From Pleurocapsa sp. PCC 7319 (GTDB lineage Bacteria > Cyanobacteriota > Cyanobacteriia > Cyanobacteriales > Xenococcaceae), in contig NZ_KB235922.1 in the NCBI RefSeq assembly GCF_000332195.1, forward strand, positions 3,569,322-3,633,321: a DNA stretch of 64,000 nt, given 5' to 3'. A program made the position numbers and the translations under genes. This document shows positions 29,321-50,086 of the stretch, piece after piece. The notes under the pieces were generated by a model. The model had not been told where the DNA came from. It was given only the letters and a program-made list of their open reading frames with translations, and searched no databases. The stretch's first letter is position 1. Each line of letters starts with the position of its first letter.

Positions 29321-29986
29321 ATGTCCCAAACAGTTTGGATAGCCAGACATGGCAATCGTCTCGATTTTGTTAACCCCGAATGGTTCAATACCGCAGCCAG
29401 ACGTTACGATCCTCCCTTATCGGAGGATGGTTTGATGCAAGCTATGGAATTAGCACAAAGATTAAAACCGGAAAATATCAATCACATCTTTGCCTCTCCT
29501 TTTTTAAGAACTATCCAAACTGCTAACCAGGTGGCAAAAGTTCTAAATCTGCCAATTAAACTAGAGGCTGGTTTAAGTGAATGGCACAATCAAGATTGGA
29601 TGACAGAAATACCTGAAACTCACCCTCCAGATTTTTTGGCTGAACAATTTCCCTTAATTGATTGGAGCTATAGCTCGTACCTCACCCCTCAATATCCTGA
29701 AAGTGAAACTGAAGTGAATCAACGTACGGAAGCAACTGTCAAGCAGCTTGTGCAAGAATTTTCAGATGATCTGCTGATTGTCGGACATGGTGCCTCAGTA
29801 TTGGGTGTTACTCAAGGATTGGTAACCAATACGCCTGAAAATAAAATTCCTCTATGTTGTTTAACTAAAGTTATCCAGAGCGATTGGCTTTGCCAGTGCG
29901 CGCAGCGCAATCGCAGTTGGAAATTAGAATTTTTTGCCGATACTTCTCATTTAAGCCAAACTGAATCTCAAGTTAGATTTAATTAA
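29321..29986 (+). CDS. Histidine phosphatase family protein
   Basis: 221 residues. The phosphohistidine motif is WIARHGNRLDF (RHG near residue 9), FASPFLRTIQTA carries the second Arg, SEWHN/E is the acid region, and LLIVGHGASVLG supplies the second catalytic His. This is the UBASH3/Sts-like branch of the phosphoglycerate-mutase superfamily. Residues 189-197 (WLCQCAQRN) are encoded by a 27-bp insertion between Asp and Arg; without it the strand would read VIQSD-RSWKLE. The insertion is near the C-terminus and probably tolerated. Confidence 0.88.
   Translation: MSQTVWIARHGNRLDFVNPEWFNTAARRYDPPLSEDGLMQAMELAQRLKPENINHIFASPFLRTIQTANQVAKVLNLPIKLEAGLSEWHNQDWMTEIPETHPPDFLAEQFPLIDWSYSSYLTPQYPESETEVNQRTEATVKQLVQEFSDDLLIVGHGASVLGVTQGLVTNTPENKIPLCCLTKVIQSDWLCQCAQRNRSWKLEFFADTSHLSQTESQVRFN
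29885..29911. repeat. 27-bp insert splitting a HIP1 site (copy 1)
   Basis: The palindrome GCGATCGC is split as GCGAT (29880-29884), 27 bp, CGC (29912-29914). The insert begins with the stem TGGC-TTT-GCCA and then has TGCGC-GCA-GCGCA. It ends in AT, repeating the AT before the insertion. It adds nine codons in frame to the histidine phosphatase gene. Confidence 0.8.
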
Positions 29987-30038
29987 CTCTCAAAACTCTT
30001 ATTTAATAAGGGTTCAGGAACAAACATTTGGATTCAAA

Positions 30039-30911
30039 TCATCCTAAGATCATTCCTGCCAGCAAAATAAAACCGAACCAGACATTTTGCCCTAACAGTT
30101 GACCATAGACAGAAGGCGGAATATTAGGTTGGCGTAACATTAAATATTGCCAAACCCAACCAACTGTAGCTAGAACTAGACTGACCCAAAAAGCCAAACT
30201 CAAACCTAGTTGGACACCTAGATAAGCCAGCAAACTTGCCGTAATTCCATAAAAAACACCGATCGCTTCTGGAGTAAATTTACCAAAAAAGATAGCACTA
30301 GAATTAATCCCAACTCTGAGATCGTCTTCGCGATCGGAAAGGGCATAGGCAGTATCAAAACCCAGAGTCCAGGCTACTGTCGCTCCCCAAAGTATCCAAG
30401 TGGTAGGTTCAATTTTGGCTGTTACTGCTGTCCAACTGATCAGCACTGCAAAACCCCAGGTTAAAGATAAAACCAACTGGGGGACAGGAATTACTCGCTT
30501 GGCTAAAGGATAAACAACAATCAGAGGAACGGCAGCCAGACAAAGGATAAAACTAAGACGGTTAAGATATAAAGCCAATATCGCAGCGCAGATTAGGGCG
30601 ATCGCAAAAATGACAATGCCGACTTTCACGGAAATGGCACGAGATGCTAAGGGACGAGACTTGGTTCGAGCTACCTGAGAGTCAATATCTTTATCCCAAA
30701 GATCGTTGATGACACAACCTGCCGCACTAGTAGCTAAAGTTCCCAAAATTATTACCCCCACTAGAGGTATAGGAGGAGTCCCTTTGGCTGCCAAAAAAAC
30801 TGCCCATAATGCAGGAATCATCAGAATTAATCTTCCTGCTGGTTTATCCCAACGCAAAAGGCGAATCACTTGCTGCCAGATTGGTTCCTTGGTGAGTTGA
30901 TACTGAGTCAT
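30039..30911 (-). CDS. ubiA: 4-hydroxybenzoate polyprenyltransferase
   Basis: 290 residues, UbiA fold with about eight or nine membrane helices. RLLRWDKPAGRLILMIPALW is the N-terminal signature; the Asp-rich motifs are NDLWDKDIDSQVARTKSRPL and YALSDREDDLRVG. It transfers a polyprenyl chain to 4-hydroxybenzoate; in cyanobacteria this is the proposed solanesyl transfer of plastoquinone synthesis. The protein is membrane-embedded. The gene converges with the phosphatase gene; a weak imperfect hairpin (29994-30014) lies between them. Confidence 0.92.
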   Translation of the reverse strand: MTQYQLTKEPIWQQVIRLLRWDKPAGRLILMIPALWAVFLAAKGTPPIPLVGVIILGTLATSAAGCVINDLWDKDIDSQVARTKSRPLASRAISVKVGIVIFAIALICAAILALYLNRLSFILCLAAVPLIVVYPLAKRVIPVPQLVLSLTWGFAVLISWTAVTAKIEPTTWILWGATVAWTLGFDTAYALSDREDDLRVGINSSAIFFGKFTPEAIGVFYGITASLLAYLGVQLGLSLAFWVSLVLATVGWVWQYLMLRQPNIPPSVYGQLLGQNVWFGFILLAGMILG

Positions 30912-31126
30912 ATTTATAGTTTTTGAACAATCTTAGAAAATTTTAATATTGAGTTGTGATAAATATATAGAAATTTTAAGTTTTAATGCTTTTGTTCGCA
31001 TTATCCATGAGATTATAAGATTACTTTAACAATATGATTGAGAAAAGTTATTGGTCTAAAAGACTTTTCGTCGTTAATTTTATCCATAAATCTGCCCTTA
31101 AAAGAAGTTAAACTCAGACAATTGCC

Positions 31127-32737
31127 ATGAATAAACAGATTATTGCAGCGATCGATATCGGCACTAACTCAATCCACATGGTAATTGTTAGGATAGAGCC
31201 TTCGCTTCCGGCTTTTACAGTAATTGCCAAAGAAAAAGATACAGTTCGTTTAGGCGATCGCGATCCAGCAACAGGAAAACTAACTCCAGAAGCGATCCAA
31301 CGTTCCCTTGCTACCTTAAGACGCTGTAAAGATTTGGCTACTAGCTTAAACGCTAGTCAAATTATTGCCGTGGCAACCAGTGCATCCAGAGAAGCTCCCA
31401 ATGGACAGGATTTTCTGCGTCAAATTGAAGAGGAGTTAGGTATCGTTGTCAATCTCATTTCAGGACAGGAAGAAGCCCGGCGAATTTATCTGGGCGTGTT
31501 GTCGGGGATGGATTTCAATGAAAAGCCTCATATCATTATTGATATCGGTGGTGGTTCTACAGAATTAATCTTGGCAGATATTCACGAACCTCGCTTTTTA
31601 AGCAGTACCAAAGTTGGTGCAGTACGCTTGTCTAAAGAGTTTGTGACCACCGATCCAATTAGCGATCGAGAGTTAAAAGTATTGCGAGCTTACGTGAGAG
31701 GAATGCTAGAGCGTTCAGTGGATGGAATTTGGCAACAATTACAACTAAATGAAGTTCCCCATGCCGTTGGCACATCAGGCACCATTGAAACATTAGCAGT
31801 AATTCATGCTAGAGACGAACTAGATACAGTGCCCGACCCCCTCAATGGCTATGAGATGAGTCGTAAAGACATCGAAAAAATGGTCAAAAAGCTGGCAAAA
31901 ATGAGTTATGAGGAACGGTTAGATGTACCGGGGATTTCCGAAAGACGAGCCGAAATTATTGTACCAGGGGCGGTTATTTTGCTAGAAGCAATGAGGATGC
32001 TTAAGCTAGACTCGATCATGATTTGTGAACGGGCATTGCGGGAAGGCATCATAGTTGATTGGATGTTAACTCGTGGCTTAATAAATAGTCGATTACGGTA
32101 TCAAAACGAAGTCAAAAGCCGCAACGTGCTCAAGATTGCTCAAAAGTATCATGTTGACTTAGATTACAGCCAACGGGTGGCACAGTTTGCTTTAAGTATC
32201 TTCGATCAGCTAAAAGGCGTATTGCATTCCTGGGGAACAGAAGAAAGAGAATTATTATGGTCGGCAGCAATTCTGCACAATTCTGGCGTATATATTAGTC
32301 ATTCATCTCACCATAAGCATTCTTACTATCTGATTCGCAATGCCGAGCTACTGGGCTTTACGGAATTAGAATTAGAACTAATTGCGAATATTGCCCGCTA
32401 CCATCGCAAAAGTAAGCCCAGGAAAAAACACGATGCTTATCATAAGCTCCCTCATAAGGAGTACCAGCAAATAGTAAAGCAATTGAGTGCTATTCTCAGA
32501 CTAGCGGTAGCTCTAGACCGGAGAAATCAAGGTGCGATCGCTGGAGTAACCTGCCAATATGATAGTCATCATCGCTCACTTAAGTTTCTGATTCAGCCTT
32601 CAGAAGTAGGTGATAAGTGCGCTTTAGAATTATGGAATCTGAGTTATAAGAAAGAAATCTTTGAAGAAGAATTTGATGTTGAACTGACTGCAACTATCTC
32701 GGAAACTAAATTGCCTATTGCTACTATGAAGGCATAG
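31127..32737 (+). CDS. ppx: Exopolyphosphatase / guanosine pentaphosphatase (Ppx/GppA)
   Basis: 536 residues. The ASKHA domain has the phosphate-1 motif IAAIDIGTNSIHMVIV and phosphate-2 IIDIGGGSTELIL. A C-terminal HD-type helical domain begins near residue 325 (HNSGVYISHSSHHKHSYYLI). The enzyme removes terminal phosphates from polyphosphate or converts pppGpp to ppGpp. The length is that of full two-domain Ppx proteins. It stands alone, with a promoter-length gap before it. Confidence 0.93.
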   Translation: MNKQIIAAIDIGTNSIHMVIVRIEPSLPAFTVIAKEKDTVRLGDRDPATGKLTPEAIQRSLATLRRCKDLATSLNASQIIAVATSASREAPNGQDFLRQIEEELGIVVNLISGQEEARRIYLGVLSGMDFNEKPHIIIDIGGGSTELILADIHEPRFLSSTKVGAVRLSKEFVTTDPISDRELKVLRAYVRGMLERSVDGIWQQLQLNEVPHAVGTSGTIETLAVIHARDELDTVPDPLNGYEMSRKDIEKMVKKLAKMSYEERLDVPGISERRAEIIVPGAVILLEAMRMLKLDSIMICERALREGIIVDWMLTRGLINSRLRYQNEVKSRNVLKIAQKYHVDLDYSQRVAQFALSIFDQLKGVLHSWGTEERELLWSAAILHNSGVYISHSSHHKHSYYLIRNAELLGFTELELELIANIARYHRKSKPRKKHDAYHKLPHKEYQQIVKQLSAILRLAVALDRRNQGAIAGVTCQYDSHHRSLKFLIQPSEVGDKCALELWNLSYKKEIFEEEFDVELTATISETKLPIATMKA

Positions 32738-32806
32738 TGATCAACTAGGTCTTATTCAAACGCTGAAAGCTATCAGATTGATAGATTGAGACTATTAACA
32801 CTTTGG

Positions 32807-33613
32807 TTAGTTTTCGATCTCTTTAGCAAAGTTTTGATCTGCAATGTCTTTGGCAAGGACATACCACTGGTTGTTAGATATGCATCTTATTTCGTCGTCG
32901 TTGGGAAGAATATCCCTATCTAGGAAGCCTGAAAGAAGATGGTGTTGCTTGCCGATACAAAGATCTAATGCTTTACGAACCTTATTCAATCCATAGTTTC
33001 CTCGATGAATCATTTGTGCATTAAATATTAAAATATCTCTAGGTTCTAGCTCGATAAGAATACCTCCTGGAAGTTTTTCACTGTTGATGTGTCCGTTCAG
33101 TTCAAGCCGTACATTTCTCTCTAGCTCAGAATCCCAGCGTTTATGGGTACCTGGAACTAGTTCAATACCTTTTTCTGCTATCAGTGGAATCCGAATATGC
33201 AGACTAAGAATGTTATTTTGCTCTTGGGCTTGAATAGAATCTTCAATTAGGCTGTATTGAAGATCTCTGTGCCAATAAGGAGTCTTAGTGTTGGTATAAG
33301 GATTAAAAAATAGCTGAGTATTGTGAAAATTGATTCCTTTGCCGAACATTTTCTCTATTAAGTCTGTAAGTTGTTCAGGCGCAATCAACTCGAAGAACTT
33401 TATCCTTTCGCTTTTGTTATTTTTGAAATACCTAGGATGAGTTAATGAGTGCATATTGATGAGTTGATGCTCAATCAATGCATCTCCATTTTCATTAAGC
33501 CATCGATCGTAAATAAGATCGACAATGATGGTTATTTTCTCGATCTCATCTTGATTCAAGAGTTTTTTGATAACGGCATAACCTCGCTCGGCATACTGCT
33601 TGCTTATTTCCAT
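32807..33613 (-). CDS. Phytanoyl-CoA dioxygenase family (PhyH) protein
   Basis: 268 residues. The Fe(II) ligands are visible: HRD in TPYWHRDLQYS (H115, D117) and the distal His in AQMIHRGNYG (H203), with R213 in KVRKALDL placed to bind 2-oxoglutarate. The fold is complete, so an active Fe(II)/2-oxoglutarate hydroxylase is likely. Substrates in this family range from lipids to ectoine and natural products, so none is assigned. It is convergent with ppx and divergent from the TPR-acetyltransferase gene (80 bp gap). Confidence 0.85.
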   Translation of the reverse strand: MEISKQYAERGYAVIKKLLNQDEIEKITIIVDLIYDRWLNENGDALIEHQLINMHSLTHPRYFKNNKSERIKFFELIAPEQLTDLIEKMFGKGINFHNTQLFFNPYTNTKTPYWHRDLQYSLIEDSIQAQEQNNILSLHIRIPLIAEKGIELVPGTHKRWDSELERNVRLELNGHINSEKLPGGILIELEPRDILIFNAQMIHRGNYGLNKVRKALDLCIGKQHHLLSGFLDRDILPNDDEIRCISNNQWYVLAKDIADQNFAKEIEN

Positions 33614-33693
33614 ATTTTTCCCTAAAAATATTTTATTAATAGCCAGAAGTTAATATAAATGAAGCTAATTCAAGTCAGGTATCAAATTAGATC

Positions 33694-34971
33694 ATGACAG
33701 CAGAAATAAAGGCGATCGCCAGTAACTCAAACTGGTCTGAAGTTTATGATTTAGCCGATACTTACAGAAATCAGCAACAATGGCAGAATGCTGCCATAGC
33801 GTTTCAAAGGGCAATCGAACTTAGACCAGATTTTTTTTGGTCTTATCATCACCTGGGAGATGTTTTCACTCAACTGCGACAATGGAAACAGGCAGCGATC
33901 GCCTATCGTCGCGCAGTACAACTTGACCCGAACTTTTTTTGGTCTTGGCATAATCTAGCCGATGCTCTCACAAAGTTAAAACAATGGGAACAAGCAGCGA
34001 TCGCCTATCGCTCCGCAGTACAACTTGACCCGAACTTTTTTTGGTCTTGGCATAATCTAGCCGATGCTTTAATTAATCTACAACAATGGGATCGAGCGAT
34101 CGCTAGTTATCTCCAAGCGATTCACCTACAGCCCAGTAACCAACTTGTCTATCAAAAATTGGGAACGGCTTTTAAACAAAGAGGTAATCTAGAAGAATCA
34201 ATTCAATATTATCGTCAAGTAATACAATCTCCAGAGCCAAATTCAATTTTTAGTATCTTCAAAACCCAGCCACAATTATTACTGGATTTTGCCGATACTC
34301 TGACCAAAGAACATCAAGCGATCGGAGCGATTATTCTCTATTACTTACTTTTAGAGCTTCAGCCCTATCAGGATCGGGTTTTGCAACAACTGGCTCAGTT
34401 ACTACAGCAGCAAAATCAGTTAGAGAGAAACCTTCTCTACCGTCGCCAAAAACTGGAAAGTGAATCAAATAGCGAATTACTAAGCAGGTTGAAACCAAGC
34501 CCCATCCCAAAACCAAAAACCCCTAATCTTCCTGGGCGAATTATAGTCAACAGCGATTGCGCTGTTCAGCCAAATCAACTGGAAGATTTATGCAGCGCGG
34601 TAGGCTGGTCACGCCGTCCTCTGAACAGGGTTCAACAAGCTTTAGATAATAGTTTTAGCTACATTGCAGCTTGGCATATTCACAATCAGGAACAACGATT
34701 GATTGGATTTGCTAGAGCTGTTTCAGACGGTACTTTTCATGCCACTATGCTGGATATACTAGTTCATCCTAATTTCCAAAATAGAGGTTTAGGGAAAACT
34801 ATTGTCACCAATCTAATTGAACAACTTCGTCAATCAGGAGTTAAGGATATTACCTTATTTGCCAGTCCACATATTGTCGATTTTTATCATAAATTAGGAT
34901 TTATCTCCCAACCCAACAATCTTCAATGGATGCTGTGGTCTTTTGATTTAGATGATCATTTCAAGTCTTAA
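33694..34971 (+). CDS. TPR-GNAT fusion protein
   Basis: 425 residues. Residues about 17-175 are four to five tetratricopeptide repeats; repeats two and three (FFWSWHNLADALTKLKQWEQ) are nearly identical at the DNA level. Residues about 285-420 are a GNAT acetyltransferase: ATMLDILVHPNFQNRGLGKT is the acetyl-CoA loop (Q/RxxGxG/A), and LFASPHIVDFYHKLGF is the C-terminal part. The TPR part probably presents a protein or peptide target to the acetyltransferase. An active CoA site is likely; the target is unknown. Confidence 0.87.
   Translation: MTAEIKAIASNSNWSEVYDLADTYRNQQQWQNAAIAFQRAIELRPDFFWSYHHLGDVFTQLRQWKQAAIAYRRAVQLDPNFFWSWHNLADALTKLKQWEQAAIAYRSAVQLDPNFFWSWHNLADALINLQQWDRAIASYLQAIHLQPSNQLVYQKLGTAFKQRGNLEESIQYYRQVIQSPEPNSIFSIFKTQPQLLLDFADTLTKEHQAIGAIILYYLLLELQPYQDRVLQQLAQLLQQQNQLERNLLYRRQKLESESNSELLSRLKPSPIPKPKTPNLPGRIIVNSDCAVQPNQLEDLCSAVGWSRRPLNRVQQALDNSFSYIAAWHIHNQEQRLIGFARAVSDGTFHATMLDILVHPNFQNRGLGKTIVTNLIEQLRQSGVKDITLFASPHIVDFYHKLGFISQPNNLQWMLWSFDLDDHFKS
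33893..34068 (+). repeat. Recent 102-bp tandem duplication inside the TPR region
   Basis: A 74-bp block starting GCAGCGATCGCCTATCG and ending CTAGCCGATGCT occurs at about 33893-33966 and again 102 bp (34 residues, one TPR unit) downstream, with only a few differences. This indicates recent expansion or gene conversion of TPR units. Confidence 0.85.
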
Positions 34972-35225
34972 ATTGTCTCAGCGATCGCTTAGACTACGGC
35001 GAATTTTTCAGATTTTTATGTTTTAGAGGTTGACATAATTGTTTAGGTTTATTATATTAATTACGTATCGTATCGTTAAATTTCTTTTTGCTCTTTCAAT
35101 GTGTTGGATAAATACTGATTGACAGACCGAAGTATTCAATTGATTACCTAAGATTAATAAACTCAGATCACATTTAGAACTTTTACTTTAATATTTTACT
35201 AAACGTAACGAAATAAAAAATAAAA

Positions 35226-35750: not shown

Positions 35751-35846
35751 GTATAACTCATAATTATATTTGATGGTTATCTTGTAATTTTGCCGAATGA
35801 CTAAATCTTTAGAGCGACGGAAAAACTAGAAACAATAACTGTCAAA

Positions 35847-38372: not shown

Positions 38373-38523
38373 AAGCTTAGAAAAGAAAATATTGCAACAA
38401 TTTGAGCAACAATCTAAAAGATTTTTGGCATAAAAATTAGTAAGGTTTTAAAGATTTCAATTGGAGATTGACAATCATGTCTCAACATTTTTATTAATTT
38501 TAGTTTTCCAATGGGAGTAAAAA

Positions 38524-39132
38524 ATGAATTATCGATTTACCAAAGTATTGATTTTCTCTCTAGTATCTAGCCTATTTTTGCCATATTTAATTAATATTCC
38601 CACATTAAACTTATCAAGCTTTGTAATTGCACAAACATCTAATTCAAAACAAGATTGGGAGAATATTATGCAACGTCTTGATGAACTCAATTATCAAGGC
38701 AATATAGTCGCTGTGCGATCGCATTTTGTAGTTAATTCAGAACAGGTAGAGGAATTTATTGATCGAGCAGCAGAAGTAGCAGCTTTCACTAACGGTAAAG
38801 ATAGCCCTGTTTTATATCGATTTTTTCAGAATATCGAACAACCCAATCAATTCGTTCTTTTTGAACAATGGTCGGATAGAAGCGCGCTTCAAAAAAACAG
38901 GAATACTACTCACGGAAAAGAATTTCAAAACAAGCTTGCACAATTAATTACAGAACCAGTGCAAGTAAGAATATATCAACCTGCTTCTGAACCAGCTAAA
39001 GGAGATGGCAAAGTAAATCGATCATTAGTTGAAGCACAACCAGGAGCAACTCCCACTATTTCTAAAACCCGCGAAAGAGGCGTATCTGGCAGGAATTGTT
39101 TGCCGATCTCGATTATGCCGATAACAAGTTGA
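38524..39132 (+). CDS. Secreted antibiotic-biosynthesis-monooxygenase-like (ABM) protein
   Basis: 202 residues. An N-terminal signal peptide (MNYRFTKVLIFSLVSSLFLP to about FVIAQ) precedes an ABM domain at about 55-155: NIVAVRSHFVVNSEQVEEFI, VLYRFFQNIEQPNQFVLFEQ and an HGKEFQNKL helix. Such ferredoxin-like domains act on quinones, haem or reactive metabolites. The final about 20 residues (GVSGRNCLPISIMPITS) look like a frameshifted tail running over the NTF2 remnant at 39096, so the native protein probably continued into an NTF2 domain. Confidence 0.75.
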   Translation: MNYRFTKVLIFSLVSSLFLPYLINIPTLNLSSFVIAQTSNSKQDWENIMQRLDELNYQGNIVAVRSHFVVNSEQVEEFIDRAAEVAAFTNGKDSPVLYRFFQNIEQPNQFVLFEQWSDRSALQKNRNTTHGKEFQNKLAQLITEPVQVRIYQPASEPAKGDGKVNRSLVEAQPGATPTISKTRERGVSGRNCLPISIMPITS

Positions 39133-39338
39133 CCCGTTTTTATCAGGTAGAGGTAGAAGGAGATCTCGCCTTTTCTTCTTTCACTGCTGATGCCATTGTC
39201 GAATCTAATGGTGAAAGGACTATAATGCCCGTCTTCTATACTCTTGGCTGGCGCAAAACTGCTAACGGATGGCGCATAATTCACGAACATGGCTCCAATC
39301 TGATTACTGAGGACTCTCCAGTTAGTCAGCCTAGATAG
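39096..39338 (+). pseudogene. C-terminal half of an NTF2/SnoaL domain, frameshifted
   Basis: LFADLDYADNKLTRFYQVEV and FYTLGWRKTANGWRIIHEHG are the last strands of an NTF2-like fold. The frame is shifted against the upstream ABM gene, and an earlier stretch (KEAYLAG, near 39075) lies in the third frame, so at least two indels occurred. Read together with 38524 this suggests a former ABM-NTF2 two-domain gene. Confidence 0.65.
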
Positions 39339-39374
39339 CAGAATTATCAAACATAAAAACTTCAAATAGATAAA

Positions 39375-40301
39375 ATGCACATTCAAAAACTCAAAAAAAT
39401 AGCGATCGCACCAAAGGCGAGGCGCTGCGCGATCGCACTTAGCTGCTTCTTTACTTCGACTTTCTTTACTACTCTATCAACTAAGGCAGAGCCAAAAACC
39501 TCTCCAATGACAGGGGCAGAAATTCTGGAAGTTGTTTCGGGAAACACAACAGTCGGTACTTTCAGCGATCGCTCTTTGAGCTATGCAGTTTTTGTTGAAC
39601 CTAACGGTCGATTAATTGGACGTATCTCAGACGGAAACTCCGAAAAAATTGAACTAGGCAGTTGGCGCGTTGACAAAAATATGCTTTGTGGTCGTTGGGA
39701 TAATCTCAAAGAGGGTGAAGAAAATTGCTTTACCTATCATCGCGTTGGTTCTAATGTCCATGCCTATAACACCGATGGTAGTTTAGATCGCATTCAGTTT
39801 TTCGTCGATGGCGATCCTTACAATCTTCAACAGGCTGCATTAATTTCAAAACAAGATGCAAACAATTCTACTCAAGTAGAAACAGAAGTTCGTAAATTTA
39901 TCACTGCTTGGGGTGAAGCCTGGAGTCCCAAAGAAAATGCTACTGAATTTACCCGAGACTCTATTGAACCTTTTTATCTGCAAACTGAGGAATTATTGGG
40001 ATTTGATTTTACCGACGCTGAATCACGAACTGTTTTTAAAGGCGTTCAAATTCATCACGATACTTGGTCGGCTTTTGTTCAAGGTTATGATTACTGGACT
40101 TTTACTCCTGTAACAGAAAGCATTCGCGTATATCCTCAATCAGATCGAGCAGCAGCAGCAACCCTTTACGTTGATAACTATGGCAGAAAACCTGATGGGA
40201 CAGAATTTAACGCACGCGCTCACGCCACCTTATTACTGGAAAAACGAGATGGCAATTGGGTTATCGTTCACGAAAATATTTGGGGTCCCGTAAACGAGTA
40301 G
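39375..40301 (+). CDS. Secreted two-domain protein with C-terminal NTF2-like domain
   Basis: 308 residues. A hydrophobic signal region (CAIALSCFFTSTFFTTLSTK) is followed by a beta-rich domain (about 42-150) with two cysteines (MLCGRWD, ENCFTYH) that could form a disulphide, and an NTF2-like domain (about 165-305; KFITAWGEAWSPKE, AHATLLLEKRDGNWVI). A 27-bp HIP1-splitting insert lies in the charged start of the signal peptide (residues about 11-20). The first domain resembles small periplasmic stress proteins, but I cannot name it. It probably acts in the periplasm. Confidence 0.72.
   Translation: MHIQKLKKIAIAPKARRCAIALSCFFTSTFFTTLSTKAEPKTSPMTGAEILEVVSGNTTVGTFSDRSLSYAVFVEPNGRLIGRISDGNSEKIELGSWRVDKNMLCGRWDNLKEGEENCFTYHRVGSNVHAYNTDGSLDRIQFFVDGDPYNLQQAALISKQDANNSTQVETEVRKFITAWGEAWSPKENATEFTRDSIEPFYLQTEELLGFDFTDAESRTVFKGVQIHHDTWSAFVQGYDYWTFTPVTESIRVYPQSDRAAAATLYVDNYGRKPDGTEFNARAHATLLLEKRDGNWVIVHENIWGPVNE
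39407..39433. repeat. 27-bp insert splitting a HIP1 site (copy 2)
   Basis: GCGAT (39402-39406), 27 bp, CGC (39434-39436). The insert starts CGCACCAAAGGCG and ends GCGCTGCGCGAT, so here a full HIP1 palindrome appears at both borders. It adds nine codons near the start of the secreted NTF2-type gene. Confidence 0.65.
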
Positions 40302-40385
40302 CAATTGATAATTATGTCTTTGTCCATCACAGGTGCAAGTCAGACTTCAATCAATTCTATTACCATTATCTAAAAATTTGGCGAT

Positions 40386-40412
40386 CAGCTTCGCTGGTGG
40401 GCGGAGCCTAAT
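40386..40412. repeat. 27-bp insert splitting a HIP1 site (copy 3)
   Basis: GCGAT (40381-40385), 27 bp, CGC (40413-40415), non-coding. The insert begins CAGC-TTC-GCTG and continues GGGC-GGA-GCCT, ending AAT. It lies where the N-terminus of the truncated SDR gene at 40424 should be. Confidence 0.75.
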
Positions 40413-40423
40413 CGCTATTTGTT

Positions 40424-41017
40424 TTGCTCTTTGTAAAACTATTAAAACTAAATAAAGATATTGAACAATTGTTTGTAGGAATAGATGAGCAATTAGAAAA
40501 GCGAATAGGTAGTAATTCCCTTGATATTCTGGTTAACAATGCAGGTGTGATTGAGTTTGGCACTGTAGAGAATAGTTCAGAAGAAGCCTTTGATAAAGTG
40601 TTTTCCGTAAATGTTAAAGGTACTTATTTTGTTACTCAGCAAGCTTTAAAAAGAATGCCCAATGGCGGACGGATTATTAATACTACCTCTACTGCTGCAA
40701 GAATTACCGAACCTGAATATGGAATTTATTCTATGTCAAAAGGAACAATTGAAGTTTTTACTAAAACCTTAGCCAAAGAATTAGGTTCTCGAAATATTGC
40801 CGTTAATGCCATTTCTCCAGGATGGATTGAAACCGATCTTAACCGAGATTTCTGGCGAGAAAATCCAGAAGTACCAGCACAAGCTGCTCGTATGTCTACT
40901 TTAAAAAGAACTGGAACAGTATTAGATATAGCTGGTATTGCCGTATTTTTAGCATCAACTGAAGCTAGTTTTATCACAGGACAAATTGTAGAAGCTAGTG
41001 GCGGTTATTATCTCTAA
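40424..41017 (+). pseudogene. Short-chain dehydrogenase lacking its N-terminal cofactor loop
   Basis: 197 residues. ILVNNAG, INTTSTAARI, YSMSKGTIEVF (catalytic Tyr and Lys) and the C-terminal GQIVEASGGYYL show a classical SDR. The Gly-rich TGxxxGxG loop is absent; a scrap of it, SITGASQ, is seen about 100 bp upstream (near 40325), separated by a stop and by a 27-bp HIP1 insert. The protein probably cannot bind NAD(P) and is likely inactive, though the frame is otherwise intact. Confidence 0.75.
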
Positions 41018-41083
41018 CCTTTAAATACTCTTACAGATTGGAAAAAATTATCGAGAAAACAACTTGATTATGAGGTAATAGTT

Positions 41084-41521
41084 ATGAAATCTCAAGAAAC
41101 GATATTAGCAAGAGTAAAACAGTGGGAAGCAGCCTGGAATGTCGGTAGCGATGAGTTTTCAATGGATCGTTTTAAAGATCTATATGTCAAGGATGAAAGC
41201 CTTGTTGCTTACGATCTAACTTCTCCTCAAACTCCAAGCATTCTTCGCGGTTATGAGCAGTATGTTCGAGTTTGGCAGCCTTTTATGCAAGCATATTCAC
41301 CTTGGAATATAAAAATAAATGACGATCTTGTTATTCATGCTGGAGATGAAATAAGCGTAGCTACTTTTACTTGGAAAGCTTGGGGAACAGTGAAAGCCGA
41401 CGGTCAAGAAATTTCTACCGAACTTCATGCCACTCTTGTCTTTGAAAATCATAACGGTATATGGCAAATCGTACACGAACATATTTCTACTCCCGTTCGA
41501 GATAATGCCTCAATTGTTTGA
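41084..41521 (+). CDS. NTF2/SnoaL-like protein
   Basis: 145 residues. ARVKQWEAAWNVGSDEFSMD is the opening helix, and TELHATLVFENHNGIWQIV then HEHIS form the last strands. It is a paralogue of the genes at 35226 and 39375 but clearly diverged. It lies between two SDR genes on the same strand and may work on related small molecules. No catalytic residues can be assigned. Confidence 0.78.
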   Translation: MKSQETILARVKQWEAAWNVGSDEFSMDRFKDLYVKDESLVAYDLTSPQTPSILRGYEQYVRVWQPFMQAYSPWNIKINDDLVIHAGDEISVATFTWKAWGTVKADGQEISTELHATLVFENHNGIWQIVHEHISTPVRDNASIV

Positions 41522-41612
41522 ACGCCAATATTTGAAGATTTATAGAGTAGTCAAATATCAAAAATATAGTTAAAAAATTTCACAAATTTTATTTTTTTCA
41601 AGGAGTAAAAAA

Positions 41613-42389
41613 ATGAACATACAGAATCAAAACAAGGTAGCCTTAATTACTGGCGCAAATAAAGGGCTTGGATTCGGAATAGCCAGAAAACTAGGCAAAC
41701 AAGGTATTACAGTCTTAATTGGGGCGCGTAACCAAGAACAAGGCAAAAAAGCAGTTGAAAAATTGAGGTTTGAAGAGATTGAAGCACATTTTATCAAACT
41801 AGACGTAAGCGATTGGCAAAGCCACCTTACTTCGCTAGATCGCACTTCGATTGAATCGGCTTATAATGCGATCGCCGAGCAATATGGCAAACTAGATATC
41901 TTGGTTAACAATGCAGGAGTTAACTTAGAATTTTCGGCAGGTTTACCCGCACCAAGTCAAGTAAGTCTCGATGTTCTCAAACAAACCTTTGAGATTAATT
42001 ATTTTGGAGTTGTCGCTGTCACTCAAGCAATGCTGCCGTTAGTTCACAAATCTGATGCTGGCAGAATTGTTAATATCTCTAGCGATATGGCTTCTTTGAC
42101 TCTACATCAAGACCCCAATTTTAAGTTTTACAATTACAAACAACTTGCTTATGATTCATCCAAAACAGCAGTAAACGCTTTTACTGTTCATTTAGCACAC
42201 GAATTAAAAGACACCAACATTAAAGTTAATTCCGCTCATCCTGGTTGGGTTAAGACTGATATGGGAACAGATGCAGGAGAGTTAAGCATAGAAGAAGGTG
42301 CAGCAACACCAGTTTGGTTAGCAACATTACCTGAAGAGGGAGCAACTGGTGGTTATTTTGATGAAAAGCAACAACCTATGCCTTGGTAA
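41613..42389 (+). CDS. Short-chain dehydrogenase/reductase (carbonyl-reductase-like)
   Basis: 258 residues. Cofactor loop TGANKGLGFG (14-23), ILVNNAGVN, catalytic Ser in VNISSDMA and the LAYDSSKTAV Tyr-Lys pair are all present, so an active NAD(P)H-dependent reductase is likely. Residues 68-76 (WQSHLTSLD) come from a 27-bp HIP1-splitting insert in the LDVSD-RTSIESAYN stretch. The insert falls in a surface loop before alpha-D and leaves the frame open. A relic at 46744 shows the same stretch without the insert. Confidence 0.9.
   Translation: MNIQNQNKVALITGANKGLGFGIARKLGKQGITVLIGARNQEQGKKAVEKLRFEEIEAHFIKLDVSDWQSHLTSLDRTSIESAYNAIAEQYGKLDILVNNAGVNLEFSAGLPAPSQVSLDVLKQTFEINYFGVVAVTQAMLPLVHKSDAGRIVNISSDMASLTLHQDPNFKFYNYKQLAYDSSKTAVNAFTVHLAHELKDTNIKVNSAHPGWVKTDMGTDAGELSIEEGAATPVWLATLPEEGATGGYFDEKQQPMPW
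41814..41840. repeat. 27-bp insert splitting a HIP1 site (copy 4)
   Basis: GCGAT (41809-41813), 27 bp, CGC (41841-41843). It starts TGGC-AAA-GCCA and ends CTAGAT. It separates Asp from Arg in the SDR, and the related fragment at 46744-46800 carries the unsplit GCGATCGC at the same place. Confidence 0.85.
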
Positions 42390-42481
42390 TTTTCACAGGA
42401 TAATTAAAACTCAACACAACTAGTTTGGAAAAAATCCTAATATCAAATTTCAACATCGAAATTAAAACAAAACTTGATTCA

Positions 42482-42535
42482 ATGCGAATTGACCACGTTA
42501 TGATTAGCGTTCTCAAATATCAACAAACGCTTTAA
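42482..42535 (+). pseudogene. N-terminal relic of a VOC protein
   Basis: The frame from the ATG at 42482 reads MRIDHVMISVLKYQQTL then stop, matching the start of the VOC gene at 43508 (MQIDHVMLSVPNYQETL). The 12 bp upstream, AACTTGATTCAA, are also shared, so it is a truncated duplicate of that gene's 5' end. Confidence 0.85.
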
Positions 42536-42575
42536 TTTAAAAAAGATTTGTAAAAAAAGATAATTACATACAAAA

Positions 42576-43475
42576 ATGGCTAACTTACAACAAAAACGCT
42601 CCGAAAATGTTGACGGTGATTTTTATGTCGATCGCTCTTGTATCAACTGCGATACCTGTCGTTGGATGGCTCCTAATATTTACCGTCAGGAAGGTTCTAA
42701 ATCTGCTGTATACCATCAACCAAGCAATCCAGATGAACGTATTCAAGCATTGGAAGCACTGCTAGCCTGTCCGACAGCTTCGATTGGTACGATCGAGAAA
42801 CCCCAAGAAATCAAGCAGGTACAGTCGAGATTTCCGCTTTTAATAGCTGACAATGTCTATCATTGTGGCTATCACTCAGAATCTTCTTTTGGTGCTGCAA
42901 GTTACTTAATTCGACGTCCCGAAGGGAATATTTTGGTAGATTCCCCTCGTTTCGCCCCCCCATTGGTCAAGCAAATTGAACAAATGGGAGGAGTTAAATA
43001 TCTGTATCTTACCCATCGCGATGATGTTGCCGACCATCGTAAATTTAATGACCATTTTGGTTGCGATAAGCCTGACGGCATAGCTATGCAACGCATTTTG
43101 CATCAAGATGAGATTTCTCAATCTACAAAAGATGTAGAAATTGTTTTAACTGGTACGGATAATTATCAGTTAGCTGACGATCTGCTAGTTATTGTCGTCC
43201 CTGGTCATACTAAAGGACATACGATTTTACTGTACGATAACAAATTCTTATTTACTGGCGATCATTTGGCATGGTCTGATAAAGAACATCAGCTAATCGC
43301 TTTTCGTCGTGCTTGTTGGTATTCGTGGACGGAGTTAACCAAATCGATGGCAAAGCTAACTAACTACAATTTTGAATGGGTGTTACCAGGTCATGGCAGA
43401 CGCTATCATGCAGATGCTCAAAAAATGCAGCAGGAATTAGTAAAATGCCTTGAATGGATGCAGGAGGTGGCATGA
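42576..43475 (+). CDS. Ferredoxin-metallo-beta-lactamase fusion protein
   Basis: 299 residues. An N-terminal 4Fe-4S ferredoxin-like domain has CINCDTC (C22, C25, C28) and a fourth Cys in ACPTASIG (C65). The metallo-beta-lactamase domain follows (about 85-295): the metal motif THRDDVADH is a variant of HxHxDH, with VVPGHTKGH, FTGDHL and the final LPGHGRR. Enzymes with this pairing are thought to bind metal and do redox-linked hydrolysis, but their substrates are unclear. The first His of HxHxDH is kept and the second position is Asp, so metal affinity may differ. It sits in a VOC/SDR island. Confidence 0.85.
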   Translation: MANLQQKRSENVDGDFYVDRSCINCDTCRWMAPNIYRQEGSKSAVYHQPSNPDERIQALEALLACPTASIGTIEKPQEIKQVQSRFPLLIADNVYHCGYHSESSFGAASYLIRRPEGNILVDSPRFAPPLVKQIEQMGGVKYLYLTHRDDVADHRKFNDHFGCDKPDGIAMQRILHQDEISQSTKDVEIVLTGTDNYQLADDLLVIVVPGHTKGHTILLYDNKFLFTGDHLAWSDKEHQLIAFRRACWYSWTELTKSMAKLTNYNFEWVLPGHGRRYHADAQKMQQELVKCLEWMQEVA

Positions 43476-44938: not shown

Positions 44939-44975
44939 ATCAAAAAGATTCAACTAAATCAATTTTACTAATTTT

Positions 44976-45233
44976 ATGAAATTTGAATATACATATACGC
45001 GCTTAAATGTCGCTAACTATCAAGTCTGTAAAGAGTTTTACCGCGATATATTGGGATTTGAAGTTATCTTTACCGATGATAAGGAAGAATATACCGAACT
45101 AGCTACAGGTCAAACTCAGATTACTATCTTCAACCGTCAGAAATTGGGAACTTTTGTTAATGCGTCTGAAAATATTAGTTATGACCCTAACTATGCAGGA
45201 GTGGTATTAAGCTTTCAGTGTCTTGGTTTTTAA
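44976..45233 (+). pseudogene. Truncated VOC protein
   Basis: 85 residues. FEYTYTRLNVANYQVCKEFY and ILGFEVIFTDDKEEYTELAT are the first VOC module, then ISYDPNYAGVVLSF ends early and the frame stops after QCLGF. The second module is missing, as if a deletion joined it to the foreign sequence at 45218. Confidence 0.75.
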
Positions 45234-45523
45234 GCGATCGCCTTACTTTTACTGAATTAGCAGCTACCTTTGAGCGAGTCACGGGTATTCTCGCAGAATA
45301 TCAATCAATGAGCGATGAAGATTTTTTAGCTCTTGATATATCTAATGTCCACGATCCGCTCAATCAATTTAAGTTTCACCGTCAATATGGTCCTTATCGC
45401 GACCATGAAACGTTAAGAAAAATCTATCCTAACTTAATGAATTTTGAAGCTTGGCTGCAACATACCAATTGGAGAGGTGAATCTCAAGAGGTTCAAAAAA
45501 ATGCCATAACAGGCAGCAAATAA
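45218..45523 (+). pseudogene. Unidentified C-terminal fragment joined to the VOC relic
   Basis: 101 residues from a GTG that overlaps the truncated VOC gene by 16 bp. SNVHDPLNQFKFHRQYGPYR and FEAWLQHTNWRGESQ look like the end of a larger helical protein, but I do not recognise the family. It has no plausible ribosome binding site, so it is probably not translated as such. The junction lies next to GCGATCGC. Confidence 0.45.
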
Positions 45524-45579
45524 ACTTACTGGCGATCGCTATATTCAATTAAAACAATACTAATAAGGAGTTAATTACA

Positions 45580-46479
45580 ATGACCAAACCAAATATTTTG
45601 GTTCTTGGTGCTACGGGGAAAGTTGGTGGTGAAGTAATAAATCAGCTACAAAATAATAAAGATATTAATGTAGTAGCTGCTACTCGTTCTTCAGACAAAG
45701 CCAAAGCGTTTAAAGACAAAAGCATTGACAGCGTAATTTTAGACTTAGATAATCCAGAAACGATCGCCCCTGCACTGAAAAATATAGACAGAGCATTATT
45801 ACTAACCGGCTACACCGTTGATATGCTTAGACAAAGCAAGCGATTTCTCGATACAGCCAAACAAACAGGAGTCAAACACATCGTTCACATCGGCGCATCT
45901 ACCGCACCTACTAATGAAGTGGCTCATTGGGGATGGCATCAATTTATTGAGTCATATATTGAAAAACTAGGCTTTGGCTACACCCATCTACGTCCCGAAG
46001 CCTTCATGCAAAACCTATTTGGCTTTGGTTGGCTCAATAATGGGGTAATTACTAACTATATTGGTAATGCTCGTTGGAGTTGGATCGATTGTTATGACTT
46101 GGCTGCGGTGGTAGTGCAAACTTTATTACATCCAGACAAATATGCGGGTCAAACTATACCTCTTGGTTACGATGCCAAAACAATGGACGAGGTAGCTCAA
46201 ATTCTCACAGAAGTTGTCGGACAACCATTTAAGATCGAAGCTCATCCGACCAAAGAGTTTTTAAACAATGCTCTACAAGAGGGAGTAGAAGGAGTCTATC
46301 CTAATGCCTATATGAAATGTGTGTATACTCAATTCGAGTTAAACGTAGCCGATAAAATCCCCGAAGCCGATCGCACTTTCAATAATTTTGAAGCCATAGT
46401 AGGACGCAAACCAAATACCTGGAAAGATTTTGCCGTAAACTATCGCGAACAACTTACCAAATACGAGCGTCAAATATAG
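45580..46479 (+). CDS. NmrA-like NAD(P)-binding protein
   Basis: 299 residues. The atypical SDR loop ILVLGATGKVGGEVI (5-19) and KHIVHIGASTAPTNEVA fit the NmrA/SDR-a5 group (TMR/HSCARG and quinone-reductase-like proteins). There is no YxxxK dyad in the usual place, as in NmrA regulators, so it may sense NADP(H) or reduce quinones. The last codons overlap the antitoxin gene on the other strand by 10 bp. Confidence 0.87.
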   Translation: MTKPNILVLGATGKVGGEVINQLQNNKDINVVAATRSSDKAKAFKDKSIDSVILDLDNPETIAPALKNIDRALLLTGYTVDMLRQSKRFLDTAKQTGVKHIVHIGASTAPTNEVAHWGWHQFIESYIEKLGFGYTHLRPEAFMQNLFGFGWLNNGVITNYIGNARWSWIDCYDLAAVVVQTLLHPDKYAGQTIPLGYDAKTMDEVAQILTEVVGQPFKIEAHPTKEFLNNALQEGVEGVYPNAYMKCVYTQFELNVADKIPEADRTFNNFEAIVGRKPNTWKDFAVNYREQLTKYERQI

Positions 46480-46685
46480 TCTTTAAAGTCTTCTAAAGGC
46501 TCATCGAAATCATCACTCATCCAAACCTTACCTTTTGCACTACCTCTTTTCAAAGGACGTTTTACTGGTGAAATCTTTGCTACTGGCTTATTGTCCCGAA
46601 CAATTGTAATTTCTTCACCCTCAATCGCCATGTCTAATAATTTTGCTAAATTTGTTTTAGCTTGAGTTATATCTACCTGAGTCAT
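46470..46685 (-). CDS. Phd/YefM-family antitoxin, no adjacent toxin
   Basis: 71 residues from the ATG at 46685. TQVDITQAKTNLAKLLDMAI and GEEITIVRDNKPVAKISPV are the Phd/YefM DNA-binding fold; the C-terminal tail (WMSDDFDEPLEDFKD) would wrap a PIN or RelE toxin. The normal place for a toxin gene is immediately downstream, but there the convergent NmrA gene begins, overlapping by 10 bp, so this antitoxin is an orphan here. Confidence 0.83.
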   Translation of the reverse strand: MTQVDITQAKTNLAKLLDMAIEGEEITIVRDNKPVAKISPVKRPLKRGSAKGKVWMSDDFDEPLEDFKDYI

Positions 46686-46743
46686 AGTCTGAATTTGATT
46701 TTCTATTAATAATTGACTGTAGGAGTAGCAAAATAAACGCACA

Positions 46744-46800
46744 CTCGAAAATATCGACGCACATTTTATCCAGCTAGACGTAAGCGATCGCACGCTTTAA
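46744..46800 (+). pseudogene. Internal relic of a short-chain dehydrogenase
   Basis: Reads LENIDAHFIQLDVSDRTL then stop. It matches residues about 53-80 of the SDR at 41613 (EEIEAHFIKLDVSD), including an intact GCGATCGC exactly where that gene has the 27-bp insert. It is a tiny fragment beside MAPEG and has no own start. Confidence 0.8.
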
Positions 46801-47243
46801 TTAGCTGCAAAAGTAGATTGCCAAACAATATGTCCTGCCATGGCAAATGTCACCCAAAGCCCCAACTGATATGATAAGTTACGCCAGGGCTGAAGTGCTT
46901 TTAGATAGCTAATCGTATGAGCGATTCTGCCGATTACAAATAGTGGTAGATAAATCTCAACTCCTCTTGACCAACAATCTAATTGTATATAGGCGATCGC
47001 TATAAATAGGAAAATGGGAATATTTTCACCATCATTACGCAGTACACTTTGGGCTCGATCAACTAGTTCACCTTGTTTTGTAGCATCAGGCTTAGAACCA
47101 AACAATTTATCAAACATTGCTGCATCTTCGGGATTGTCAAAACCGCGATGTTTATATCGTTCATATCCCTGGACTAAAACCACTGCGAACATTTTTAAAA
47201 ACAGCACCACCACCGTCAGTCCATAAATTTTCCAACTATCCAT
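46797..47243 (-). CDS. MAPEG family membrane protein
   Basis: 148 residues with four hydrophobic segments. LVQGYERYKHRGFDNPED and VDRAQSVLRNDGENIPIFLF (E-N motif) match membrane-associated proteins in eicosanoid and glutathione metabolism. Such proteins conjugate glutathione to lipophilic electrophiles or reduce hydroperoxides. The start has AGGAGA upstream. An insertion sequence begins 31 bp upstream of the start codon and separates the gene from its original promoter. Confidence 0.87.
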   Translation of the reverse strand: MDSWKIYGLTVVVLFLKMFAVVLVQGYERYKHRGFDNPEDAAMFDKLFGSKPDATKQGELVDRAQSVLRNDGENIPIFLFIAIAYIQLDCWSRGVEIYLPLFVIGRIAHTISYLKALQPWRNLSYQLGLWVTFAMAGHIVWQSTFAAN

Positions 47244-47273
47244 AACTTATTTCTCCTATTGTTAAATTAATAA

Positions 47274-48367
47274 CTGACGTTACGCACTCTTGAGCAAATG
47301 TAATTCGCACATAGCTTGTTTCAAAGCAGTGACATAAATACGATTTCTCAGGGCAAAATGGTTCATTTTGTGTTTCAATTTTAGACATTCCAATTGAAAT
47401 GCAGCATAGACGGACATAAAAATGTGATTGCTTTGAGTGCGGATTGATTTAGTTGGAGATTTCGCCAAACCAGTATTGGACTTGAGTGTTTTATGAAAGA
47501 CTTCCACGTTCCACCGTTTTTGATAGATTGCTTCAAGTTTGGTCACATCACAGTTAAAATCGCTACAAGCCAAATACAAAATGCCAATACTTCCATCTTT
47601 GTTTGTAAAGACTTGACGGTGGAGTAAAACAGGAAAATCTAATCCTTTAAGCCACCCCCTAATTAGCTTTTTTTCTGACCATTCAAGAGAATCTATTCGG
47701 CAAAAATGACCTTGTTTCTTACTTTCCTCACTCACCGCTACTGTACGATTACTTTTGATTGCCATGATGAAATGCTTCTTTAAATCTTGGCGAATAAAAG
47801 TCATGTTTTCTTTAGAAGAAAACCAACTATCGGCTAGCACGTACTTATATTTAAGCTGATTTCTCTGACAAATCTTTAATTGATTTCGAGTCAGCTCATT
47901 TTTAGTTACTGTTCCTCTTCGTTTCTCTTTTCGAGTTTTTAAATCACAGAATTTTATAGGTTTTTTGATAATATTAAACCCGACTGGTAAGCTGATATTT
48001 TCTACACTGTAGACATAATTGATGATGTTAATTCCCTTAACTGAGCGTTTTGATTGATGGTCATGACAGGGCAAACCAATTCACTTTCTTGTGTATAAGG
48101 TTTTTTCTCAATCGTGTCATCTACAATCAGTACCCCTTCTTCTTGTTCAGACTCTCTTACTACTGGTTTTACTAGTTTCCATAGCTCTTTCGAGTTCAGG
48201 TCTTTGTTCGATAAGAAACGAGTTATTTTGTCATGACTGATACTTCCTCCCAGTGCTTTAGATAATCCTGTTGCTGTTATCTGTCCAAATGAGCTGATAA
48301 TATAATCGCTGTATAATTCCAAAAGCTTCATGTTCATCTCAATATGATAGCTTTTGCGTAACGTCAG
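47274..48367 (-). mobile_element. Insertion sequence (IS4/IS701-like DDE), 1.09 kb
   Basis: Terminal inverted repeats: the left end reads CTGACGTTACGCA and the right end TGCGTAACGTCAG. The flanking 7-bp TTAATAA at 47267-47273 and 48368-48374 is a direct repeat, the target duplication. The transposase inside is on the minus strand, in two frames. It is inserted just upstream of the MAPEG gene. Confidence 0.87.
47280..48337 (-). pseudogene. Frameshifted DDE transposase
   Basis: The first part (from 48337, about 90 useful residues, MNMKLLELYSDYIISSFG) holds GVLIVDDTIEKKPYTQESEL with the first catalytic Asp. The second part (47280-48074) continues KRSVKGINIINYV and holds YVLADSWFSSKENM (second Asp) and WNVEVFHKTLKSNTG (the catalytic Glu region). 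A one-base loss near 48060 (after ELVC) breaks the frame. If the element is still mobile, it needs another copy's transposase or a translational frameshift. Confidence 0.8.
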
Positions 48368-48551
48368 TTAATAAAATAAGCCACAAATTACACCTTAATT
48401 TAGACGTTGCAAGTTGAATCACCCAATAGTGTAAACTATGGACTATACTCCAAGGTCAAGAGTAAAAAGATGCGAATTGGTTGCTTAGCAAAATGTTCGG
48501 GCTTGTCGATCAATTCGATACGATTTTATTTACTTATGGAGAAACAAAATT

Positions 48552-48626
48552 ATGAGTGATTAAAAAACAGCTTTAATAACTGGTGTAAATCGTGGGATTG
48601 GATTTGCGACTAACATTCAATTATAA
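48552..48626 (+). pseudogene. N-terminal relic of a short-chain dehydrogenase with early stop
   Basis: Starts MSD, stop, then KTALITGVNRGIGFATNIQL and stop. The TGxxxGxG loop is clear. It resembles the SDR genes and relics at 54284 and 56733. It is the only recognisable thing in the 325-bp gap between the insertion sequence and the Uma2 gene. Confidence 0.75.
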
Positions 48627-48699
48627 TAACTTCCCAATTGAGACGTGTGATAAAACATTAATTGAATTATTATGCAATAAATTAGCTTTAATTAATCTC

Positions 48700-49269
48700 T
48701 TATCCTCTTTGTAATACTCGATCGGCTGTTAAATCGTTTTGTGCTAATAAAGGTGAGTAAATGCGATCGCTACCTCGATAAACTTTTTCCTCATAAAAAC
48801 CTTCAACCAATTCCAAAATTGTTACTTTCTGTTGAATTGCATCTACGATCCAATATTCGCTAATTCCTCTGGCTGCGTACTCACTGCGCTTGTAACGATA
48901 ATCTCGCTTTTCTTGATTAGGACTGACAACTTCTACAGCCAGAATAGGTGGTGGCATATCCATTAAGATAATCGATCTAGTCGCACCTTCGAGTACCGTC
49001 GCCAATTCCTCGGATAACACAAGTAAATCTGGTAAGCGTACAGATACTCTTGCCCCACTAACGGCTATCTCTGTTTTCATGGTCAGTCGATAAGAAGGAA
49101 TACCCTGTTGGAGCAAATATGCTAGCAAAAACATGGCAATTCGGCGATTAATTTCGCTCTCCGAAGGCATCCAGATTAATTCTCCATTTTCTAGTTCGTA
49201 TAAATTATCCGTGCCATCATCATAAGCAAGGAACTCTTCTAGAGACATTTTCTGAGTGGTAGTGGTCAT
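48700..49269 (-). CDS. Uma2 family protein (DUF820)
   Basis: 189 residues. LEEFLAYDDGTDNLYELENG is the typical start, LPDLLVLSEEL and ILAVEVVSPNQEKRDYRYKR provide the D-ExK nuclease-like core, and EYWIVDAIQQKVTILEL closes the fold. Uma2 proteins are abundant in cyanobacteria and look like PD-(D/E)xK nucleases of unknown role. A second family member is at 55526. Confidence 0.87.
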   Translation of the reverse strand: MTTTTQKMSLEEFLAYDDGTDNLYELENGELIWMPSESEINRRIAMFLLAYLLQQGIPSYRLTMKTEIAVSGARVSVRLPDLLVLSEELATVLEGATRSIILMDMPPPILAVEVVSPNQEKRDYRYKRSEYAARGISEYWIVDAIQQKVTILELVEGFYEEKVYRGSDRIYSPLLAQNDLTADRVLQRG

Positions 49270-49321
49270 TTTTAGAATTCCTCAGGAGTTTATTCGATCC
49301 TATCATTTGGCTCATCTTAGC

Positions 49322-49342
49322 TCTGACTTTTCACGGTATCTT
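49322..49342. repeat. Left copy of a 21-bp inverted repeat bounding a 3-kb region
   Basis: TCTGACTTTTCACGG-Y-ATCTT. The reverse complement occurs at 52334-52354 with one mismatch. Just inside, TAATAATGTTCGCTAAC (about 49363-49379) resembles the terminal repeat of the IS4-type element (TAACAATATTCGCTAAC in its right end read outward to inward). Confidence 0.75.
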
Positions 49343-50059
49343 GGGTCGAAAAAAAACTAGGTAATAATGTTCGCTAACTTTTGTTCAATCTTGAGGTTTC
49401 CTCAACCAAATCTGACAAACCCATTGAAAGTGTACTCATCCCTCGCTCCAAAGCTTCAATTCGACCACGACGTGATAGAGCTTCAACCGCTTTCAAATAA
49501 GCTTGACTTCCAGCTTTATAGTCATTCTAAATAGGAAACATATGAAATAATATAAGCTAGATGAGAAATCAATCAGGTTAGATGACTTATAGTGTAGATT
49601 TGCGAAAGCGGGTAGTGGACTTTGTAGCGGCTGGAGGCTCCAAAGCCGAAGCATCAAGAAGATATGAGGTAAGTCTATGGTGTGTGAATGATTGGTGTCG
49701 AAGAAAGAATTTGACTCCAGCACCACAACTTGGAAGAAAGCGAAAACTAGACTCTCTAGCAATTGCCCAACATATTCAAGAAAATCCAGATGCTTTGTTA
49801 AGAGAAAGGGCGCAATATTTTGGAGTGCATACGAGTGCTATTGGGTATGCCCAGAAGCAAATGAAGTTAACTCGTAAAAAAAACGCTGAAATACACTGAA
49901 CGTAAGCATAGTGAGCGAATCAGCTTTCTGAGAAATTTACGTAAAATTGTCATTCTTGACGGATCAAGCAATTTAGTTTACTTGGATGAATCAGGCTTTG
50001 AAGAATATGTCTATCGTCCTTATGGCTGGTCAAAACGAGGACAAAAAACTTACGGCGAT

Positions 50060-50086
50060 TGCCCGAAGGGCAGTGGCTTCGCCAAT
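50060..50086. repeat. 27-bp insert splitting a HIP1 site (copy 5)
   Basis: GCGAT (50055-50059), 27 bp, CGC (50087-50089). It starts TGCCC-GAA-GGGCA and continues TGGC-TTC-GCCA, ending AT. In the transposase it adds nine codons (CPKGSGFAN) between Asp and Arg of YGD-RNGKRG. Confidence 0.87.

Follow-up and report, generated by a model that had tools for sequence, protein, structure and literature searches.

The window, that is, the whole 64,000-nucleotide stretch of Pleurocapsa sp. PCC 7319 DNA that was analysed, raises the question of whether the short inserts of fixed length found splitting HIP1 palindromes in it form a family of mobile repeats and, if so, whether that family belongs to a kind already known. 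An earlier note on this DNA had placed five such sites in one family. All five coordinates read as it claimed, and membership was upheld for the sites at 29880, 40381, 41809 and 50055, the one at 39402 being discarded for its poor pairing and its lack of a covariance-model match. The features concerned are the following.

29880..29914, minus strand: SDR5-type element plus the flanking HIP1 halves (GCGAT, double hairpin of 25 nt at 29885-29909, AT, CGC); 9/9 pairs; 57.2 bits
29321..29986, plus strand: ORF of 221 aa, His_Phos_1 family (Pfam E 8e-28), with element 29880 in frame near its C-terminus
39402..39436, no strand assigned: fifth site, non-member; an intact HIP1 octamer at either end with 19 nt between them; 6/9 pairs; no model match at E 0.1
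40381..40415, minus strand: SDR5-type element, CAGC-TTC-GCTG stem variant; 8/9 pairs; 46.2 bits; row of the model's own alignment
41809..41843, minus strand: SDR5-type element, decayed-looking; 7/9 pairs; 40.2 bits; row of the model's own alignment
41613..42389, plus strand: short-chain dehydrogenase ORF of 258 aa (Pfam adh_short E 4.7e-47), with element 41809 in frame
50055..50089, plus strand: SDR5-type element within an IS630-type insertion sequence, where the frame is open; 9/9 pairs; 50.3 bits
49322..50700, plus strand: IS630-type stretch, present in four copies in a 1.653-Mb block of the contig (100% identity over 1379 bp), each with element 50055; HTH_Tnp_IS630 in ORF 49582-49899

The covariance model matched four of the five window sites with E-values from 7e-9 to 1.1e-5, although 40381 and 41809, as rows of its alignment, match by construction, and it is 29880 and 50055 that lie outside that alignment. 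The second stem, reported earlier for at least three copies, is present in all four true ones, and is imperfect in the two with 8/9 (40381) and 7/9 (41809) pairs overall. Element 40381 is intergenic and precedes an N-terminally short dehydrogenase ORF (40424-41017). The IS630-type copies have reading frames interrupted at two or more points, and a second transposase-like ORF (window 50835-52226, minus strand; Tnp_DNA_bind, DDE_Tnp_1) adjoins the copy in the window.

Rewriting the site pattern as GCGAT-N-ATCGC gave a sharper signal, and upon searching against other spacings the excess of one fixed length became apparent at every scale, N25 standing out in window, block and genome. GCGAT-N25-ATCGC occurs five times in the window versus zero to two times at each other spacing between 0 and 60, and 35 times in the 1.653-Mb block versus 2-11 times at other spacings between 18 and 60, with the exception of N22 (17 sites). 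The complete genome (7,386,997 bases, 10 contigs) contains 139 N25 sites, background included, versus 5 for a reversed control pattern. The block also holds 1413 HIP1 octamers, and many background sites are bounded by them. Interiors of the N25 sites were scored, in both orientations, for the nine pairs of a 5-bp stem with a 3-nt loop, one base, and a 4-bp stem with a 3-nt loop. At least seven of the nine pairs formed in 23 of the 35 N25 sites of the block, where shuffled interiors predict 0.19, these 23 elements not being all independent because four of them sit in identical copies of one insertion sequence. The same level was reached by the first 25 nt of 5 of the 221 control sites at N26-N60. 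Perfect 5-1-4 double hairpins with perfect HIP1 flanks numbered 17, and those lacking HIP1-like flanks (at least four mismatches of 10) numbered 19, which is the level of whole shuffled sequence (18-45).

The architecture of the element, two adjacent hairpins (5-3-5 / 1 / 4-3-4, or 13+1+11) filling the 25 nt between the HIP1 halves, was evaluated on the 47 oriented sequences of the covariance model, hand-picked among the 70 distinct 25-mers that form 7/9 pairs or more. Standard pairs occupy 97.9% of the pair cells versus 81.5% in shuffles, the former percentage being inflated by the hand selection at that pairing level, and slid structures on the same alignment drop to 21-42% pairing. Double-sided changes were found in 59 cells versus 12.5 in shuffles, and at eight of the nine pairs, even though variety is lowered by the many rows that come from loci found with a pattern fixing most stem letters; the earlier observation that stem bases change together is thus borne out. 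The loop-closing pair is C-G in 46 of 47 sequences for each loop, cells of G-U type amount to 2 of 423, and where a stem changes, both partners of the pair are almost always replaced, as is also seen in the 18 distinct elements of the unselected block. Loops are all-purine or all-pyrimidine in 142 of 147 and 143 of 147 elements, the counts for the 70 distinct 25-mers being 65 and 68; by our estimate about a quarter would be expected for random loop bases. An identical architecture, with a 4-bp hairpin that often reads CGCC-NNN-GGCG, appears among the sites listed for a genome of another family (G043).

Loci found with the stem-fixing pattern were compared among themselves and against the block. 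Filled loci L020, L024 and L054 align, respectively, to the empty regions L078, L078 and L071, which are 27 bp shorter and retain an intact GCGATCGC; these three clean pairs are similar regions within one metagenome-assembled genome, Pleurocapsa sp. MO_192.B19. In a fourth clean pair, L101 of MO_192.B19 aligns with PCC 7319 over 897 bp at 80%, the empty site reading GCCATCGC without the 27 bp, and by our own reading the frame continues through the insert of L101. Most other spanning rows of the comparison are filled on both sides. Four rows of L070/L103 versus L080 labelled as empty were dropped as poor alignments (64-67% identity), as was that of L071 versus L024, probably an empty HIP1 with a badly aligned right flank. 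For the phosphatase ORF carrying 29880, all ten same-genus orthologues examined (of 12 relatives, G001 and G010 having been left out with matches that end short of the site) display an 8- or 9-residue gap, so that this copy is absent from ten orthologues. At the DNA level an intact HIP1 was found in one of these ten empty sites (G008, L244), either at the place itself or, going by the outer anchors, one codon away, and is absent in the other nine, in which the target is consequently not preserved. Regarding the ORF around 41809, its best PDB match (5o98) shows a 9-residue gap at the element, and the second one (5l51) gaps elsewhere; among the relatives' loci compared with window 38500-42600, no alignment spanned 40381 or 41809. 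The 27-bp-shorter empty loci fit the proposal of the earlier note that each insert could be 25 bp plus a duplicated AT, a duplication read from symmetry, since a 27-nt insert without it yields an identical sequence.

Elements are less confined to genes than their target. With a simple ORF caller, 10 of the 23 block elements lie in ORFs versus 1167 of the 1413 HIP1 octamers (p 3e-5), the 13 elements outside including the four IS copies, counted there because their transposase is split. Among the ten located in ORFs, one (2718984) contains the called ORF start and five fall within 15% of the ORF length from either end. Of five carriers outside the window searched with Pfam, two had no match; the others were a WD40-repeat protein and, carrying the element close to their C-termini, a formyltransferase-like and a dihydrouridine-synthase-like protein. 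Moreover, no stop codon interrupts any of the six frames in 11 of the 18 distinct block elements; among 35-mers the share is 20% for shuffled and 1.6% for random genomic ones, which is suggestive, but no more, of a stop-poor composition.

Of the 291 genomes sampled from the order, 93 displayed model matches (E <=0.01), covering 17 family codes, with a best E <=1e-4 in 63 of them; at most 23 candidates were scored per genome, and about three chance genomes are expected at this threshold, E-values being rough owing to a short calibration. A strict letter pattern, tried as the measure of distribution, reached 11 of the 291 genomes and was rejected as an undercount; named records containing it include Scytonema, Tolypothrix, Nostoc, Komarekiella, Calothrix, Symploca and Lyngbya. 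In a class-level sample, matches were found in 11 of 194 genomes, eight in the order; the other three lie outside it, and each gave a single weak match. Matches were obtained in 9 of the 13 genomes of the genus, weak and solitary ones in some cases, and none in G007, G008, G010 and G011, so that same-genus genomes span from 0 to at least 23 matches. Frequent stems are common to distant genomes. The strict pattern also occurs six times (L036, L059, L065, L073, L096, L114) in an assembly named Chloroflexaceae bacterium SM1_2_4, possibly through cyanobacterial contamination or mislabelling.

Repeats of this type have reportedly been described before: Elhai and co-workers are said to have defined in 2008 eight SDR families of 21-27 nt, confined to a coherent subgroup, Nostoc and its relatives, and to have counted them with the smallest units for which sequences indicate mobility. 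SDR4, SDR5 and SDR6 reportedly share a structure backed by compensatory mutations, SDR5 is said to be located only in HIP1, and RNA intermediates are said to have been suggested for SDRs. The present elements likewise form two stems with compensatory changes, and with 25 nt plus AT they fall in the reported size class; on the contrary, their abundance in a Pleurocapsa-like genome and their presence in 17 family codes differ from the Nostoc subgroup for which SDR5 was reportedly described. As stated in PMC4390886 (citing Elhai et al. 2008, Genome Res 18:1484), SDR5 inserts precisely between bases 3 and 4 of HIP1, and directed cutting at HIP1 had earlier been suggested as a partial explanation. 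The placement found here is the same (GCG-AT..AT-CGC frame, with empty sites reading as the octamer in the three clean pairs). The present elements agree with SDR5 in every feature compared, namely placement in HIP1, paired stems and length, and on these features are of SDR5 type. The feature is real and well supported, its kind is already known, and the view that the family is unusual as a kind has to be given up, SDR5 within HIP1 being already published according to PMC4390886. A literature search, mostly outside subscription papers, returned PMC4390886 as the sole paper treating SDR5 together with HIP1, and for Pleurocapsa and HIP1 a match concerning HIP1 PCR typing, which says little about priority.

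Other tiny repeats resemble these elements to a lesser extent. REP/REPIN sequences are likewise tiny, non-autonomous, many-copied and built of paired hairpins, but a GTAG or CGTC tag adjoins their hairpin, and neither occurs in our 35-nt consensus; they also differ from the present elements, which have one palindromic octamer as site, an apparent 2-bp duplication and a weak Y1 association. Nezha and other bacterial MITEs are likewise non-autonomous and would need an enzyme in trans, the unit here being of only 25 nt. Rickettsia palindromic elements reportedly also sit in frame inside protein genes, as is clear here at 29880 and L101 and less so at 41809, but they are ~100-150 bp long and not tied to one octamer, versus 27 bp here, and the likeness is a resemblance only.

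How might such units move? The 25-nt double hairpin lies between the HIP1 halves, the central AT of the octamer is found on both of its sides, and empty alleles are 27 bp shorter. Together with the spacing excess, the covariation and the patchy distribution, these observations make it quite probable that we are dealing with SDR5-like mobile repeats, non-autonomous and site-specific. At the centre of the palindrome (GCG^AT), a staggered cut of 2 nt would accept the unit, and gap filling would duplicate the AT. Because pairing and exact geometry are kept while the stem letters vary, an enzyme acting in trans would recognise a folded single strand, DNA or RNA. Some copies would multiply by riding on the IS630-type element, and the presence of element 50055 in four identical IS copies does attribute part of the copy number to it. 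Considering that 27 is a multiple of three and that the unit is poor in stop codons, insertion into an ORF would add nine residues and could be tolerated. The near absence of G-U pairs leans towards DNA folding, or towards a copying process that makes perfect palindromes, over slow drift of an RNA.

Hairpins could instead be selected for a cellular role, as terminators, mRNA stability elements or protein-binding sites in RNA or DNA, with HIP1 as part of the site and no need of recent mobility. The strong covariation of pairs would suit such a role, as would the location of 13 of 23 block elements outside called ORFs when most HIP1 octamers lie inside them, but empty sites that differ by 27 bp, copies in frame within protein genes and within an insertion sequence, and the range of match numbers within the genus make this most improbable. 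Template switching deserves slightly more credit, yet is still quite unlikely: snap-back DNA synthesis at HIP1 (quasi-palindrome correction) would make the hairpins and keep them perfect, covariation then reflecting a copying error and not an enzyme that reads structure. Near-complete pair swaps with hardly any G-U type cells are what it predicts, and loop triplets of both purines and pyrimidines are those that inversion of a single hairpin would give; nonetheless, the fixed 13+1+11 geometry, the C-G closure of both loops and the recurrence of frequent stems in distant genomes indicate a common source.

Among the possible mobilisers, a RAYT/IS200-type Y1 transposase moving a REPIN-like element is very doubtful. 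Two adjacent hairpins in a short non-autonomous unit recall REPINs, at least 14 Y1 matches (PF01797) were found in the PCC 7319 genome, and Y1 is weakly enriched in element-bearing genomes (90 of 93 versus 168 of 198 others; Fisher p 0.0024 before any correction for genome size or kinship, either of which may be the cause). Against this, Y1 is present nearly everywhere (258 of 291 genomes of the order), GTAG and CGTC are missing from the 35-nt consensus, IS200-type insertion is not known to make a target duplication, and three bearers have no Y1 match, namely G238 (12 element matches, 88% complete), G256 (65% complete) and G108 (two weak matches); as a marker of the mobiliser, Y1 was rejected for its near-ubiquity and weak enrichment. 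Insertion of an RNA by a reverse transcriptase is unlikely, but would account for recognition at the level of structure, and RVT_1 genes (PF00078) are indeed found in 17 of 20 chosen genomes, PCC 7319 not being among them. They are, however, present in 9 of 12 bearers versus 8 of 8 genomes without matches, bearers lacking them being G043 (17 matches), G238 and G108, so that this marker was also set aside for lack of association in these 20 genomes; in addition, paired RNA would by our reasoning be expected to drift through some G-U pairs, of which there are almost none. The Y1 and reverse transcriptase profile searches thus revealed no mobilising enzyme for the SDR5-type repeats, and past movement may be due to an enzyme since lost.

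The 139 N25 sites of the genome (background included), the four same-genus genomes without match and the clean empty sites together make the way in which SDR5-type repeats move testable. They also supply proteins with nine-residue insertions as a ready-made natural series, and they bear on the puzzle of why HIP1 is so abundant. Possible additions to what is known comprise the high copy number in a Pleurocapsa-like genome, the spread over the order, in-frame insertions, chains and the loop rule; the in-frame phosphatase insertion absent from ten orthologues is a useful complement to the SDR5 picture, as are scale, host and loop rule. More tentatively, the 25-nt unit may be defined by its fold and not by its letters, an enzyme in trans moving the double hairpin, single-stranded and of constant geometry, to the HIP1 centre across the order and spreading nine-residue peptides into proteins, with GCG-ending units rebuilding HIP1 alongside so that chains grow.

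Chains of a 25-nt unit, AT, a 22-nt unit and AT were found at C7:3201210, 4057225 and 4187910, and a longer tandem array of 25- and 22-nt double-hairpin units with AT between them lies near 4004150 (C7:4004150-4004350). In chained units the preceding one ends in GCG, the exception being the pair at 2959362, and GCG-AT is in this way rebuilt beside it; from this handful of cases, GCG-ending units would appear to regenerate GCG-AT as chains form. Regarding the N22 peak, 3 of the 17 sites turned out to be the follow-on unit of a chain headed by a 25-nt unit, in several others a 13-nt hairpin precedes a GCG-ending stretch, and the remainder look like background.
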